DNA of 33,772 nt from Bacteroidaceae bacterium. Lineage in GTDB: Bacteria > Bacteroidota > Bacteroidia > Bacteroidales > Bacteroidaceae. Location: positions 1 through 33,772 of the forward strand of contig JAFXMB010000087.1 of the NCBI GenBank assembly GCA_017530735.1. The letters run 5' to 3'. This document shows, piece after piece, positions 15,011-26,065 of this stretch (position 1 is its first letter; each line of letters opens with the position of its first letter). The position numbers and the translations under genes were made by a program. A model generated the notes under the pieces. It had not been told where the DNA came from. It made no database searches and saw nothing but the letters and a program-made list of their open reading frames with translations.

Positions 15011-15041
15011 ATTGCAAATAGGAATTTTCTGTGTATTTTTG
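15011..15041 (+). promoter_or_regulatory. Promoter of the glmS-pyrG leader
   Basis: ATTG at 15011-15014, a 19-bp spacer, then TATTTTTG at 15034-15041 (TAnnTTTG). The predicted start near 15047 leaves a very short 5' UTR before the leader ATG at 15060. Confidence 0.65.
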
Positions 15042-15059: not shown

Positions 15060-15173
15060 ATGGAGGGAAAAGTTACATACAACTGTCTGTCTAACCAGAT
15101 GAATGACAAGCAGAATCTGAATAATAATCAGATTCCGGTTTCCCCGTGTTGTTTCACCAGTCGGATAATATGA
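15060..15173 (+). CDS. Asn/Gln-rich leader peptide upstream of glmS-pyrG (37 aa)
   Basis: A 37-codon ORF just after a good promoter and before the glmS hairpin. The peptide begins MEGKVTYNCLSNQ, has a middle of QNLNNNQIPV and ends FTSRII. Seven Asn and three Gln fall between residues 8 and 24. I predict it is read for its ribosome position, not for the product: slowing at the Asn/Gln codons would leave bases 15156-15162 (the Thr33-Ser34-Arg35 codons) free to pair with the terminator's left arm. The second leader at 23493 has the same plan and an 18-base stretch differing at one position. Translation is not proven, and no Shine-Dalgarno site is visible. Confidence 0.65.
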   Translation: MEGKVTYNCLSNQMNDKQNLNNNQIPVSPCCFTSRII

Positions 15174-15219
15174 CGGAGATTTTGGAAATACTTATTGGAT
15201 AATTTGAGTGAAGGCTGGT
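15156..15219 (+). promoter_or_regulatory. Predicted antiterminator pairing in the glmS leader
   Basis: ACCAGTC (15156-15162), in the last five sense codons of the leader ORF, can pair with GGCTGGT (15213-15219), the left arm of the terminator-like hairpin: seven pairs, one of them G-U. The two structures exclude each other. Confidence 0.5.
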
Positions 15220-15248
15220 TCAGTTAGAATCAGCCTTCACCCTTTATT
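15208..15248 (+). terminator. Terminator-like hairpin in the glmS leader
   Basis: Bases 15208-15221 and 15227-15240 form a 14-bp stem with one G-U pair and a 5-nt loop, followed by CCTTTATT. The stem is strong but the T tract is weak, so it may act by pausing or by blocking translation of glmS, whose ATG is 20 nt away. Confidence 0.6.
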
Positions 15249-15260
15249 GAAGGTTATTAT

Positions 15261-17105
15261 ATGTGCGGAATTGTAGGTTATATCGGTAAACGTCAGGCAT
15301 GCCCGATACTGCTCAAGGGGCTTTCCCGCCTGGAGTATCGCGGTTACGACAGCGCCGGCGTGGCGCTTATCAATGACAACGGCAATCTGGTCATTTACAA
15401 GACCAAGGGTAAGGTGGCCGATCTGGAAAAGGCCATAGAAGGAAAGGATATCAGCGGCAGTGTGGGTATAGCGCATACCCGTTGGGCCACTCACGGAGAA
15501 CCCAATGACATCAATGCCCATCCGCACTTCTCGGAGTCCGGTAACCTGGCACTCATACACAACGGTATAATTGAGAACTACCGCTCACTCAAGACCGAGC
15601 TCCAGAACCAGGGCTATCACTTTAAGAGTGAGACAGATACAGAGGTTATAATCCAGCTTATCCAGTACATCATGGACAGCCACTCCATCACGCTTGAGGA
15701 GGCTGTTCCGCTGGCTCTAAACAGCGTGATAGGCGCCTATGCCATCGTGATTGTGGACAAGACCCAACCCGACCGCATGATTGCCGCCCGCAAGGGAAGC
15801 CCCCTTATAATAGGTGTTGGCGATGACGAGTTCCTGATAGGGTCCGATGCCACCCCGATCATTGAATACACTGACCGGGTGGTATATCTGGGTGAGGAGC
15901 AGATAGCTTTCATTGAGCGCGGCAAGGATCTTAAGATTACGGATCTGCGCAGTGTTGAGCAGACTGCCGTGATCAAGAAACTGGAACTGAACCTGAGTCA
16001 GATAGAGAAGGGCGGTTTTGCCCATTTCATGCTCAAAGAGATACATGAGCAGCCCGATACGTCACGTACGGTTATGAACGGCCGCCTGCATCCGGAACTG
16101 GGTATTGTAAAACTGTCAGGCGTCATAGACCATAAGGACCGTCTGCTCAAGGCACGCCGCATAATAATTTGTGCCTGCGGAACATCATGGCACGCAGCGC
16201 TCATAGGAAAATACATGATTGAGGAACTAACCCGCATTCCGGTTGAGGTGGAGTACTCATCGGAGTTCCGTTACCGCAATCCGGTTATCTATCCCGATGA
16301 TGTGGTGATTGCCATATCGCAGTCGGGTGAGACGGCCGATACATTGGCAGCCATGCAGCTGGCCAAGGCATCGGGCGCATTCCTGTTCGGAATATGCAAT
16401 GTGGTTGGTTCATCGATTGCACGTGCGGCCGATACGGGTTGTTACACCCATGCAGGCCCCGAGATCGGTGTGGCATCGACCAAGGCCTTTACCGCTCAGG
16501 TTGAGACACTGCTGCTGCTTGCACTCAACATTGCCCAGGAGAAGGGAACCGTATCGGACGAACTCCGTAAACGCATCATTGCAGAACTGCCTCGTATTCC
16601 CGACAAGATTGAGAAGATACTCAGGCATGACAAGCAGATATCCGAACTTGCCAAGACATTCACATACGCGCATAACTTTATCTACCTGGGACGCGGTTAC
16701 AACTATCCGATTGCACTGGAGGGTGCGCTCAAACTCAAGGAGATATCATACATACATGCCGAGGGCTATCCCGCAGCCGAGATGAAACACGGTCCTATTG
16801 CCCTGATTGATGAGGAGATGCCGGTGGTGGTTATTGCTCCCAAACGCGGTCATTATGACAAGATCCTGAGCAATATCCAGGAGGTCAAGGCGCGTAAGGG
16901 CAGGGTGATCAGCATCGTGACCGAGGGCGACAAGGACGTCAAGGGAATATCGGACTACTCGTTTGAGATTCCGGATACCGAGGAGTGCCTGGTTCCGCTG
17001 CTGTCGGTCATACCTCTGCAGCTCCTTGCATACCACATTGCCATTGCCAAGGGGCGTGACGTGGACCAGCCCCGTAACCTTGCCAAATCTGTTACAGTAG
17101 AATAG
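15261..17105 (+). CDS. glmS: Glutamine-fructose-6-phosphate aminotransferase (isomerising)
   Basis: A 614-residue enzyme making glucosamine-6-phosphate from fructose-6-phosphate and glutamine, the first step to UDP-GlcNAc for peptidoglycan and LPS. After removal of Met, Cys2 of MCGIVGYIG is the glutaminase nucleophile. RLEYRGYDSAG, HTRWATHG and the N-terminal amidotransferase fold are present; two SIS sugar-isomerase domains follow (CGTSWHA near 308-314, SQSGETADT, STKAFTAQ), and the end DQPRNLAKSVTVE is the family C-terminus. It stands 20 nt after the leader hairpin and 15 bp before pyrG, so both glutamine amidotransferases should share the leader control. No glmS ribozyme is apparent. Confidence 0.98.
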   Translation: MCGIVGYIGKRQACPILLKGLSRLEYRGYDSAGVALINDNGNLVIYKTKGKVADLEKAIEGKDISGSVGIAHTRWATHGEPNDINAHPHFSESGNLALIHNGIIENYRSLKTELQNQGYHFKSETDTEVIIQLIQYIMDSHSITLEEAVPLALNSVIGAYAIVIVDKTQPDRMIAARKGSPLIIGVGDDEFLIGSDATPIIEYTDRVVYLGEEQIAFIERGKDLKITDLRSVEQTAVIKKLELNLSQIEKGGFAHFMLKEIHEQPDTSRTVMNGRLHPELGIVKLSGVIDHKDRLLKARRIIICACGTSWHAALIGKYMIEELTRIPVEVEYSSEFRYRNPVIYPDDVVIAISQSGETADTLAAMQLAKASGAFLFGICNVVGSSIARAADTGCYTHAGPEIGVASTKAFTAQVETLLLLALNIAQEKGTVSDELRKRIIAELPRIPDKIEKILRHDKQISELAKTFTYAHNFIYLGRGYNYPIALEGALKLKEISYIHAEGYPAAEMKHGPIALIDEEMPVVVIAPKRGHYDKILSNIQEVKARKGRVISIVTEGDKDVKGISDYSFEIPDTEECLVPLLSVIPLQLLAYHIAIAKGRDVDQPRNLAKSVTVE

Positions 17106-18922
<1,817 letters not shown>

Positions 18923-23453: not shown

Positions 23454-23461
23454 TACCTTTG
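23454..23461 (+). promoter_or_regulatory. Promoter -7 element of the glnK-amtB leader
   Basis: TACCTTTG is a full TAnnTTTG match. A TTTG lies at 23426-23429, with a slightly long 24-bp spacer. The predicted start near 23467 leaves about 26 nt before the leader ATG. The stretch from 23267 to 23453 is otherwise AT-rich and holds only the divergent CotH promoter. Confidence 0.65.
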
Positions 23462-23492
23462 CACCAGAAATCAGAAACAACAAAACATTTAT

Positions 23493-23615
23493 ATGTTTAT
23501 CGGTTTTAAAAATATAACCACTGTCCAGCTGAATAATAACCAGCAGCAGAATAATCAGAACCAGAATAATAATCAGGTTCCGATGGTTATACCTTTTGAC
23601 CGGTCAGGTATGTAA
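23493..23615 (+). CDS. Asn/Gln-rich leader peptide upstream of glnK-amtB (40 aa)
   Basis: A 40-codon ORF between a promoter and a strong terminator. The peptide begins MFIGFKNITTVQL, continues with fifteen consecutive Asn/Gln residues (14-28), and ends VPMVIPFDRSGM. In all 10 Asn and 7 Gln codons are present. This is the classical look of an attenuator leader peptide: translation would stall at this run when charged Gln or Asn tRNA is scarce. The frame is also open upstream from a TTG at 23427, but that start lies before the predicted transcription start, so I prefer ATG 23493. The Asp36-Arg37-Ser38 codons contain the predicted antiterminator arm. It matches the 15060 leader in layout and in NNNQ-(I/V)-P. 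Confidence 0.75.
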   Translation: MFIGFKNITTVQLNNNQQQNNQNQNNNQVPMVIPFDRSGM

Positions 23616-23653
23616 CTGTTGATTTAGATAAAGAAAAAGAATTAAGGCTGGTC
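23598..23653 (+). promoter_or_regulatory. Predicted antiterminator pairing in the glnK leader
   Basis: GACCGGTC (23598-23605), beginning five codons before the leader stop, can pair with GGCTGGTC (23646-23653), the left arm of the terminator: eight pairs including two G-U. Formation of this helix would prevent the terminator. Confidence 0.6.
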
Positions 23654-23674
23654 TTTTTAGACCGGCCTTTTTTT
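23644..23674 (+). terminator. Strong intrinsic terminator between the leader ORF and glnK
   Basis: AAGGCTGGTCT (23644-23654) pairs with AGACCGGCCTT (23659-23669), with one G-U pair and a TTTT loop, followed by an unbroken T run to 23674. It lies 28 bp after the leader stop and 48 bp before glnK, so without antitermination glnK-amtB would not be transcribed from the leader promoter. Confidence 0.9.
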
Positions 23675-23722
23675 GTTTAACGATGCATCAAAACACAATA
23701 ATTAACCTCAAATCAAAACACA

Positions 23723-24070
23723 ATGAAAAAGATTGAAGCAATCATCCGGAAAACCCGGTTTGAAGATGTTAAGGAGGCGCTCTTTGAGGCCGACATCAAC
23801 TGGTTCTCTTACGCAGAGGTTCATGCTATCGGTCAGGCCCGTCAGGATCGTATCTACCGTGGTGTGATGTACAGTACTGATATCATTTCGCGTATTGAGA
23901 TAACAATTATCTGCCGCGATCAGTTCGTACAGCCTGCCATCGATGCCATCATGGGAGCAGCCCGCACCGGTCAGGTGGGTGATGGCCGAATATTCGTAAG
24001 CCCTGTAGATGACACATGGTCAATCCGTACCGGAGAACACGGTGATACGGTTCTGGCCGACAAAAAGTAA
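23723..24070 (+). CDS. glnK: P-II nitrogen regulatory protein
   Basis: A 115-residue trimeric signal protein that binds ATP, ADP and 2-oxoglutarate and gates the ammonium channel AmtB. The T-loop (about 37-55) contains Tyr45 and Tyr50 in RIYRGVMYST, corresponding to Tyr46 and Tyr51 of enteric P-II; the B-loop TGQVGDGRIFV (82-92) and C-loop IRTGEHGDTVL (101-111) are intact. The T-loop otherwise departs from the enteric sequence (AIGQARQDR), so uridylylation cannot be assumed. Linkage to amtB 21 bp downstream supports the GlnK name over GlnB. Expression is expected to depend on the leader attenuator upstream. Confidence 0.95.
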   Translation: MKKIEAIIRKTRFEDVKEALFEADINWFSYAEVHAIGQARQDRIYRGVMYSTDIISRIEITIICRDQFVQPAIDAIMGAARTGQVGDGRIFVSPVDDTWSIRTGEHGDTVLADKK

Positions 24071-24091: not shown

Positions 24092-25336
24092 ATGGAAGAC
24101 ATTATTACAACAGTAAGTGAGAGTAGCATAAGCGGACTGGATACAGTCTGGGTATTGATAGCAGCAATGCTGGTGTTCTTTATGCAGCCCGGTTTCGCGC
24201 TGGTGGAGGCAGGCTTTACCCGTTCCAAGAACACTGCCAACATCCTCATGAAGAACTTTGTTGACTTCATGGTAGGTTCTTTCCTGTTCTGGATGATCGG
24301 TTTCGGTCTGATGCACGGAGCCAACAACGGTTTCATTGGTGGACTTCACCTTTTTGACTGGTCATTCATTGGAGACTCAAACGTTCCCGCTGAATGCACC
24401 CTGATATTTCAGACCGTATTCTGCGCCACTGCCGCTACTATAGTATCAGGCGGTATGGCAGAGAGAACCAAGTTCTCCATGTACGTACTTATTTCAATCA
24501 TCATCTCAGTAATCATTTATCCCATTGAGGGTCACTGGACATGGGGTGGCGGCTGGCTTTCAGAGCTTGGTTTCCATGATTTTGCAGGTTCAACCGTTGT
24601 TCACTCATGCGGTGGTGTGATTGCTCTGGCCGGTGCTATGGTACTCGGACCCCGTATCGGTAAATATTCAAAGACTGGCGAATCACGCGCTATCCCCGGT
24701 CACAACCTGACATTCGGTGCCCTGGGTGTATTCATCCTCTGGTTCGGTTGGTTCGGTTTCAACCCCGGTTCACAGCTGGCTGCTGAGGGAGCTGAGAACG
24801 CTATCGCAATCTCACACGTAATGTGCACAACCAACATGGCTGCAGCCACAGGCGGTCTTTCAGTTCTGTTCCTTACATGGCTGGTATATGGCAAACCTTC
24901 ACTCTCACTGGTATGCAACGGCATCCTGGCAGGTCTGGTAGGTATCACAGCCGGTTGCGACCTTGTATCAATAGGCGGTGCAGCAATAATCGGCGCTCTT
25001 TGCGGTGTTGCAATGGTAGGTTCGGTTGCCCTGATTGATAAGGTCTGCAAGATTGACGATCCCGTTGGCGCTGTATCAGTTCACGGAGTATGCGGTATCC
25101 TTGGTACACTTATGACCGGTATGTTTGCAGTTGACGGTGGCCTGTTCTACGGTGGTGGCTGGCACTTCCTGGGCGTTGAGGCTCTTGGATCACTTGTAAC
25201 CTGCGCCTGGTCATTCGGACTTGGTCTGCTCACATTCGTAATCCTCAAGAAGGTTCACGGAATCCGCGTTGAGGCCCGCGTCGAGGAGGAAGGTTTGGAT
25301 ATCTATGAGCATGGAGAAACAGCATACAACATCTGA
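24092..25336 (+). CDS. amtB: Ammonium transporter
   Basis: A 414-residue inner-membrane channel of the Amt/Rh family with about eleven membrane segments. Diagnostic segments are FFMQPGFALVEAGFTRSKN near the start, the twin pore histidines His171 (VVHSCGGVIALAGA) and His331 (SVHGVCGILGTL), and FGWFGFNPGS. The C-terminal cytoplasmic tail (KKVHGIRVEARVEEEGLDIYEHGE) is the family pattern that contacts P-II. It lies 21 bp after glnK and 39 bp before the TorF-type gene. Function: uptake of ammonium under nitrogen limitation, blocked by the P-II T-loop when nitrogen is plentiful. Confidence 0.98.
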   Translation: MEDIITTVSESSISGLDTVWVLIAAMLVFFMQPGFALVEAGFTRSKNTANILMKNFVDFMVGSFLFWMIGFGLMHGANNGFIGGLHLFDWSFIGDSNVPAECTLIFQTVFCATAATIVSGGMAERTKFSMYVLISIIISVIIYPIEGHWTWGGGWLSELGFHDFAGSTVVHSCGGVIALAGAMVLGPRIGKYSKTGESRAIPGHNLTFGALGVFILWFGWFGFNPGSQLAAEGAENAIAISHVMCTTNMAAATGGLSVLFLTWLVYGKPSLSLVCNGILAGLVGITAGCDLVSIGGAAIIGALCGVAMVGSVALIDKVCKIDDPVGAVSVHGVCGILGTLMTGMFAVDGGLFYGGGWHFLGVEALGSLVTCAWSFGLGLLTFVILKKVHGIRVEARVEEEGLDIYEHGETAYNI

Positions 25337-25375: not shown

Positions 25376-26065
25376 ATGAAAAAGATATTCTCAATAGTAG
25401 CATTAGTGATGATAATGGCACCTGTATGTGCCGAAGTTGAAACAACAATAGCAGCCGATGTAGTAAGTGAGTACGTTTGGAGAGGCGCTAAATGCGGAGA
25501 CGCAGCAATTCAACCCACATTGGGAGTAAGCGCTGCGGGATTTGACCTCTCGCTTTGGGGATCGGTTGGAGTTGCCAACTTTGGTGATACCAGAGAGTTG
25601 GATGTCACCTTGAGTTACTCGATAGCCGGAGCATCGGTAGGTGTTACAGACTATTGGTTCAGCGCGGGTGATGAGCCTTTCGGACGTTATTTCAAGTATG
25701 GAAAGGGTGCTACCAACCATGTTTTTGAAGTATTTGCCGGATATGACTTTGGATTTGCCTCAATCAGCTGGTACACAAACTTTGCGGGTGCCGATTACAA
25801 GGCCGACGGCAGCAGCGCATTCAGCTCGTACTGCGAGCTTGCCGCTCCGTTCAGTTTTGGCGGTGCAGACTGGACTGCAACTCTGGGTATGGTTCCCTTT
25901 GAGAGCGGACTGTACGGAACCGAAGGATTTGCCGTAACCAACGTTTCACTCAGTGCAGCAAAATCAATTGACATAACAGAAAACTTCAGTCTTCCGGTAT
26001 CGGCCGGACTGACAGTAAACCCATGTGCCGAGATGGCATACCTTGTTTTTGGAATTTCATTCTAA
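25376..26065 (+). CDS. TorF-type putative outer-membrane porin of the amt locus
   Basis: A 229-residue protein with a signal peptide (about residues 1-19, ending VCAEV). VVSEYVWRGA near the mature N-terminus and alternating beta-strands ending in aromatic residues (final LVFGISF) fit the TIGR02001/Gcw_chp family, also named TorF putative porin. Members recur next to ammonium transporters, so a role in letting ammonium or small nitrogen compounds across the outer membrane is plausible but unproven. It is the third gene after the leader (39 bp after amtB), and two tandem hairpins end the transcript. Confidence 0.78.
   Translation: MKKIFSIVALVMIMAPVCAEVETTIAADVVSEYVWRGAKCGDAAIQPTLGVSAAGFDLSLWGSVGVANFGDTRELDVTLSYSIAGASVGVTDYWFSAGDEPFGRYFKYGKGATNHVFEVFAGYDFGFASISWYTNFAGADYKADGSSAFSSYCELAAPFSFGGADWTATLGMVPFESGLYGTEGFAVTNVSLSAAKSIDITENFSLPVSAGLTVNPCAEMAYLVFGISF

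Follow-up and report, generated by a model that had tools for sequence, protein, structure and literature searches.

Asparagine/glutamine-codon leaders before glnK-amtB and other nitrogen-use operons of Bacteroidaceae: a candidate attenuation regulon

The leaders of the window

The window analysed here is a stretch of 33,772 nucleotides from a Bacteroidaceae bacterium (contig JAFXMB010000087.1 of assembly GCA_017530735.1), on which the genes for a P-II protein and an ammonium transporter, glnK and amtB, are preceded by a short ORF with an uninterrupted series of asparagine and glutamine (N/Q) codons and by an intrinsic terminator. The features of this locus are as follows.

23454..23461, + strand: promoter -7-type element TACCTTTG of the glnK leader (from the sequence; TAnnTT(T/C)G is also found 5' of most N/Q ORFs)
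23493..23615, + strand: leader peptide ORF from the ATG at 23493 to the TAA ending at 23615, 40 codons plus TAA, MFIGFKNITTVQLNNNQQQNNQNQNNNQVPMVIPFDRSGM (from translation; conserved in the genus)
23532..23576, + strand: 15 consecutive Asn/Gln codons, residues 14-28, the proposed stalling region (from the sequence)
23558..23580, + strand: P1, a small hairpin GAACC...GGTTC over the end of the N/Q run (from the fold and covariation)
23598..23605, + strand: arm 2, GACCGGTC, the putative 5' arm of the antiterminator, overlapping the last leader codons (from sequence and alignment)
23644..23669, + strand: intrinsic terminator hairpin of 11 pairs followed by TTTTT, the T run extending to 23674 (from a hairpin scan and covariation)
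23646..23653, + strand: arm 3, GGCTGGTC, the left arm of the terminator (from the sequence)
23723..24070, + strand: glnK, P-II protein (PF00543 over cut-off; NCBIfam P-II models below their equivalog cut-offs)
24092..25336, + strand: amtB, ammonium transporter (TIGR00836 over cut-off)
25376..26065, + strand: torF, presumably a small outer-membrane porin-like protein, 3' of amtB (no NCBIfam or Pfam match; torF is the label used here)

The original prediction had placed these elements from the letters of the window, and direct reading of the sequence agrees with its coordinates to the base. The TAnnTTTG element, which we take to be the Bacteroidota-type -7 promoter element, is present as TACCTTTG, the 40-codon ORF carries its 15 consecutive Asn/Gln codons, a strong intrinsic terminator with pronounced covariation in relatives stands before the P-II gene, GACCGGTC and GGCTGGTC can form eight pairs, and 24 nt separate the start of the last Gln codon from arm 2. 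The list of parts was right but incomplete, the conserved P1 hairpin at the end of the N/Q run having been missed.

Asparagine and glutamine together make up 8.7% of the 10,117 codons of 22 window genes, with at most 6 in any 15-codon stretch, and on this background 15 N/Q codons in a row would be expected with a chance of about 1e-16 per position. A TAnnTT(T/C)G element lies upstream of 71 of 86 scored N/Q ORFs and, in 61 of the 71, is 18-31 nt before the ATG; a sigma-70 promoter scan of the glnK leader region, which does not cover TAnnTTTG promoters, remained at chance level. The terminator scan of the same region found one terminator against a shuffle mean of 0.2, and the whole leader with its terminator is far more stably folded than its shuffles (z -5.62). 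The pairing of arm 2 with arm 3 is modestly improbable taken alone, being equalled by 4 of 500 dinucleotide shuffles (0.008). In the whole-leader fold the start region pairs with arm 2 in a superattenuation-like manner, which we do not take as a general feature. The torF-type gene, which follows amtB in the window, stands before glnK in some other loci.

In addition to the leader before glnK-amtB, the window holds another of the same kind, before glmS-pyrG.

15034..15041, + strand: promoter element TATTTTTG of the second leader (from the sequence)
15060..15173, + strand: second Asn/Gln leader ORF, MEGKVTYNCLSNQMNDKQNLNNNQIPVSPCCFTSRII, before glmS-pyrG (leader profile match, E 6.3e-14)
15156..15162, + strand: arm 2 of the glmS leader, ACCAGTC (from the sequence)
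15209..15239, + strand: terminator-like hairpin of the glmS leader, with arm 3 at 15213-15219 and a weak T run, CCCTTTATT (from the sequence)
15261..17105, + strand: glmS, glutamine--fructose-6-phosphate transaminase (TIGR01135 over cut-off)
17121..18731, + strand: pyrG, glutamine-hydrolysing CTP synthase (TIGR00337 over cut-off)

Occurrence of the leaders before other genes and in other genomes

When the window's own genome was searched with the leader peptide alone, three N/Q leaders were found, before glnK-amtB, glmS-pyrG and asnB, the last of these on contig C5, and a profile search returned the same number (3 matches at E<=0.5, all before such genes). Run over 399 genomes of the family, the profile, made from 13 leaders, gave matches in 55 genomes at E<=0.5. 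All 70 profile rows with E<=2.5e-4, one of which is truncated by a contig edge, directly precede glnK, torF-glnK, asnB, glmS, pyrG or purF. Weaker rows (E>2.5e-4) include leaders of pyrG (G026), glnK (G170) and, in three cases, gltB; the weak row of G396 (L253) is noise on reading, and the other rows above 2.5e-4, two of G180 among them, fall outside the gene reading.

Relatives add purF, pyrG alone and gltB to the targets found in the window's own genome, and the unit of leader, arm and terminator stands before six kinds of operon: glnK-amtB (in some cases headed by a porin-like gene), asnB, glmS, pyrG, purF and gltB, all of which are concerned with glutamine or ammonium use. For AsnB, GlmS, PurF, PyrG and GltB glutamine is the nitrogen donor, and GlnK-AmtB serves ammonium uptake. 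The identities of asnB, glmS, pyrG and purF rest on matches over the NCBIfam cut-offs and that of amtB on TIGR00836; gltB is identified by a partial match over the fetched stretch, below the NCBIfam cut-off. Three supposed purF leaders (L178, L235, L244) belong to glmS by the translated gene starts, GlmS and PurF sharing an amidotransferase domain. In G018 (L023/L199, L241) the glnK match falls into two pieces and asnB is interrupted early by an in-frame stop, and leaders, arms and terminators still stand before both. Judged by sequence, the N/Q leaders form a regulon rather than a curiosity of glnK-amtB. The leader first reported before glnK-amtB is real but is one member of this regulon, and its second copy in the window had been overlooked.

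A search that started from the glnK protein found the gene in 22 of the 37 genomes of the genus. The comparison of regions upstream of amtB and glnK that the original prediction proposed as a check came out in its favour, in that the arrangement of N/Q ORF, arm and terminator is kept at 22/22 of these loci, before glnK itself or, in G014, before torF-glnK. Among the 15 genomes with no glnK match, 13 also gave no leader-peptide match; of the remaining two, G028 has a glnK leader that ends at a contig edge and G003 has an asnB leader. At L022 the leader stands before torF. For genus g15, the leader was present in 15 of 30 fetched glnK loci, and in further genera of the family most of the glnK loci read have no leader. 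Among 80 named glnK loci, a leader lies within 450 nt of glnK in three (L025, L026 and L027), all from metagenome-assembled genomes (MAGs). In the case of L027, from a horse-faeces Bacteroidales MAG, N/Q leader and terminator are present, and the pairing of the arms is no better than in shuffles (0.368). The MAG UBA1189 has a second N/Q leader (L025:4878-5017), before an asnB-like gene with 62.8% identity to the asnB of the window's own genome. Searched across the order, 4 of 393 genomes gave matches at E<=0.01, namely the window's own genome and three weak matches; since these three, on reading, are not leaders of the Asn/Gln kind, the module seems limited to a portion of one family, apparently a single clade. 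Its hosts are a group of uncultured gut and rumen bacteria.

The genus has 21 asnB genes, 18 of them with an N/Q leader (including L317, with an early stop after the run). At the other loci the leader is frameshifted (L321), or asnB lies directly behind amtB (G010 and G014), glnK or torF-glnK having the N/Q leader there. The stop of L317 falls just after the run and the frame of L321 shifts before it, which may reflect errors in assembly or natural mutation. When 20 of the 21 asnB upstream regions were shuffled by mononucleotide, an N/Q ORF arose in 1 of 4000. For glmS, 24 genes exceeded the cut-off, with a leader at 13; at 6 the gene lies directly behind another, which by eye is the apparent end of carB in 5 of those 6 (L275, L277, L282, L283, L292). 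carB belongs to another glutamine-dependent system, and purF-like genes follow glmS in several genomes. At 5 of the 24 glmS loci (L276, L278, L281, L287, L295) a terminator-like hairpin is kept, with N/Q ORF and arm 2 both gone. Their joint loss fits a single unit; the hairpin that persists with no leader does not fit a pure switch. The upstream region of glmS in L295 resembles a half-decayed leader.

Coding signals, RNA structure and tRNA charging

Measured in 20 glnK leaders of the genus, arm 2 always keeps its frame relative to the ATG, from which it lies 100, 103 or 106 nt away, and arm 3 follows arm 2 at 43 or 45-49; the length of the glnK leaders changes by whole codons only. Within the run, N and Q swap freely, and its order, length and neighbouring residues vary widely. 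The best windows of the leaders comprise 1200 codons, 203 of which are not N/Q; Leu CTG is the commonest of these (47), and Lys and His together account for only 24. Asparagine is written as AAT 567 times and AAC 127 times in 76 leaders, as against 138 and 357 in the window genes, and glutamine is mostly CAG in both (468/495 in leaders, 346/382 in window genes). In many leaders, the AAC codon that breaks the AAT series lies within the 5' arm of P1.

The nucleotides of arm 2 (CCAGTCGG-like) are kept across different reading frames, or past the stop, depending on the locus, and arm 2 is unchanged where the peptide ends differ between genera and frames. For 82 of the 85 rows scored, the core of arm 2 begins at most 21 nt ahead of the end of the stop codon and at most 4 nt beyond it, a count limited to a search range of -32..+22 that includes one spurious ORF and three gltB rows scored at another site. 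The spurious ORF, a second one at L161, was left out of the promoter, shuffle, codon and distance counts. In the gltB leaders, the stop lies about 30 nt past arm 2. For a ribosome that leaves arm 2 exposed by stalling in the run and hides it at the stop, the spacing suits most loci and does not suit gltB.

For structure, 40 representatives were chosen by hand from 85 leader rows and aligned. The terminator is paired in 99.4% of 360 cells, with a covariation score reached by none of 500 shuffles, and P1 in 91.5% of 259 cells, with a score reached by 1 of 500. The antiterminator has a core of four pairs (columns 106-109 with 199-202) that forms in 40/40 sequences, its outer pairs varying between gene families. 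Three of its pairs are changed on both sides, a number reached by 2 of 500 shuffles; its percentage paired and covariation score are not above shuffles in this alignment, so that covariation is weak. When arm 3 was shuffled among 27 arm combinations, the observed pairing was reached in 70 of 5000, and the arm pairing of individual leader variants has p<=0.05 in 50 of 68 and is no better than 0.05 in 18 of 68.

The RNA of 16 representatives was folded with ribosomes placed either on the run or on the stop codon. A ribosome on the stop codon lets the terminator form with all or most of its pairs in 16/16. If the ribosome is instead set on the end of the run and the RNA stops short of arm 4, arm 3 is clearly the partner of arm 2 in 7 of the 16, including the glnK leader of the window. 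With arm 4 added, equilibrium favours the terminator in 16/16, and the minimum-energy fold of the full RNA likewise contains it in all of them. This consistent preference of equilibrium folding for the terminator means that the switch must be kinetic, as classical attenuation switches likewise are. An Rfam scan of the glnK leader region at E up to 1 returned four unrelated families, all below the gathering score, with no T-box family and no covariance-model match to the glutamine riboswitches (glnA, Downstream-peptide).

The enzymes that charge the relevant tRNAs were sought in the genomes of the genus. GlnRS is found in 37/37 genomes of the genus, 34 over the cut-off, and GatB in 0/37, with a control search positive in 12 of 14. 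The presence of GlnRS together with the absence of GatB suggests that Gln-tRNA is made directly from glutamine, so that its charging should follow free glutamine, and the absence of GatB implies that Asn-tRNA is charged directly too. In addition, 14 of 15 hisG loci of the genus (L259-L273, the window's own genome being L270) have a short ORF upstream in which three or four His codons are clustered (MKSYTASYHHHHTCRS type). It lies about 180-330 nt ahead of the assumed start of hisG, and in the two upstream sequences viewed there is also a hairpin with a T run. By its anatomy, this looks like classical His attenuation in Bacteroidales, and on that basis it is a positive control for attenuation logic in these bacteria. 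It shares the short ORF, the repeated codons and the hairpin with T run with the Asn/Gln leaders, and differs from them in concerning one amino acid and one operon.

Proposed mechanism, alternatives and related systems

Leader-peptide attenuation of the trp/his type is known from Proteobacteria. The parts of the Asn/Gln leaders, their spacing and conservation, the covariation of the terminator, the set of genes and the presence of GlnRS with absence of GatB are all read from sequence, and from them we consider it very probable that the leaders act by ribosome-mediated transcription attenuation responding to the charging of Asn- and Gln-tRNA, and that they make up a small glutamine-status regulon. 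The appeal to trp/his logic in the original prediction is supported in that, of the explanations considered, Asn/Gln-dependent attenuation agrees best with the comparative data. It is favoured by the occurrence of one unit before six kinds of operon, by codon-sized length changes, and by the retention of arm 2 across frames near the stop.

Transcription would begin about 25-30 nt upstream of the leader ATG, with a ribosome translating the leader behind RNA polymerase, possibly aided by a pause of the polymerase at the hairpin at the end of the run that lets the ribosome catch up; P1, from its sequence and fold, is a possible candidate for such a pause hairpin. If Asn-tRNA and Gln-tRNA are both charged, the ribosome would pass the run and sit at the stop, its footprint covering arm 2, whereupon arm 3 would pair with arm 4 and the terminator would form and end transcription. 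If either charged tRNA is scarce, the ribosome would stall in the run, which in the glnK leader ends its progress at least 24 nt short of arm 2, leaving arm 2 free to pair with arm 3 once the latter is made, and the polymerase would read into glnK-amtB, asnB, glmS-pyrG, purF, pyrG or gltB. The transcription start, the stalling, the arm switching, the termination and the direction of the response are inferred.

Several observations run counter to attenuation, namely the weak covariation of the antiterminator, the terminator-only equilibrium folds, the leaderless hairpins at 5 of 24 glmS loci, the weak T run of the glmS leader, and the position of the gltB stop. It also counts against attenuation that higher levels of glutamine-consuming enzymes at low glutamine are not obviously useful. 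In P. ruminicola 23, glnK, amtB, asnB, gltB and pyrG are among the ammonium-responding genes in the available parts of PMC5552732, where passages disagree on direction and one has glnK higher on non-limiting ammonium. That direction would oppose the attenuation reading only if this strain carries leaders.

A regulatory protein or small molecule that binds the leader RNA through its AAU/CAG repeats, P1 and arm 2, with the frame being incidental or keeping the RNA open, would account for the strong nucleotide constraint evident in the preference for AAT and for the covariation of P1. Against such binding stand the whole-codon length changes of the glnK leaders, the interchange of Asn and Gln codons in leaders that nevertheless hold few of the Lys and His codons one base away (24/1200), and the lack of an Rfam family above its gathering score, and we regard it as quite improbable. 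A constitutive partial terminator or processing hairpin, behind an ORF for a functional N/Q-rich peptide and with regulation elsewhere, for instance at the promoter, agrees with the leaderless glmS hairpins and with folds that always give the terminator at equilibrium. It is harder to reconcile with peptide ends that vary by genus and frame where arm 2 stays, with leader and arm 2 being lost together at the five glmS loci, and with the single metabolic theme of the profile matches, and we think it less probable still.

The smallest likelihood is assigned to a scheme with the same anatomy in which read-through is set by a stall of the nascent N/Q peptide or by slow decoding of AAU rather than by uncharged tRNA. 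The AAT bias of the leaders would suit it, but the order, length and neighbouring residues of N and Q vary widely, unlike those typical of known arrest peptides, and the gene set points to glutamine and asparagine supply. For glmS only, and compatible with attenuation elsewhere, the leader might act on translation initiation rather than termination, as suggested by the weak T run and by a start codon only 21 nt after the hairpin. This is possible if somewhat doubtful, as the T runs at glnK and asnB are stronger and the hairpin there lies further from the gene.

Returning to attenuation, we lean towards the broader view that the leaders constitute a nitrogen-status regulon operating via the ribosome, in which leader copies acting as an Asn+Gln OR gate may have spread to ammonium uptake and several glutamine amidotransferases, putatively filling the role that NtrBC or GlnR/TnrA have in other bacteria. 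Nitrogen sensing in Bacteroidales is, as far as we know, poorly understood. If correct, the regulon would provide a concrete sensor, readable in codons, of how well rumen and gut bacteria are supplied with glutamine and asparagine, and nitrogen-regulated genes would be predictable from sequence alone. As in the trp, his and thr systems of E. coli, a short ORF with a run of regulatory codons is combined with mutually exclusive antiterminator and terminator, and the regulatory amino acid is tied to the pathway of the operon. The Asn/Gln leaders differ from those systems in pooling asparagine and glutamine in one run, in serving several unlinked nitrogen-use operons, and in belonging to Bacteroidales, and we know of no earlier leader-peptide regulon that pools two amino acids across unlinked nitrogen-use operons. 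On the sequences compared, it appears to be new that the leaders form a regulon, that the window holds a second copy, that a P1 hairpin is conserved, and that the module is apparently restricted to a single clade.

The glnA and Downstream-peptide RNAs have cyanobacterial hosts and bind glutamine. Unlike the Asn/Gln leaders they are structured riboswitch candidates; the target genes of glnA RNAs are similar, as these are linked to genes for P-II proteins, ammonium transporters and glutamate synthase (the parts of PMC2864571 available). The statement of the original prediction that no such description was known in Bacteroidota was too broad, in view of two accounts available in part. In Flavobacterium psychrophilum, leader-peptide attenuation has been suggested for amino-acid biosynthesis operons (PMC9723704), a case that shares phylum and proposed mechanism and, in the parts available, mentions no Asn/Gln leader or nitrogen regulon. 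The Bacteroid-trp motif (RF01692), a likely cis-regulatory RNA of Bacteroidetes, also shares the phylum and by its name concerns trp (PMC2864571, in part). The available parts of PMC7366714 describe sORFs of B. thetaiotaomicron reminiscent of leader peptides. The open-access literature searched, as far as its available parts extend, yielded no comparable Asn/Gln leader peptide or nitrogen regulon; a 2010 attenuation survey cited in PMC4833913 might mention related cases.

Among the glnK loci, those of Prevotella type (L031, L113, L114, L115, L116, L146) have a short conserved leader of another kind, CATTGCAATGTG...AGGACGCT, which directly follows the promoter just upstream of glnK.
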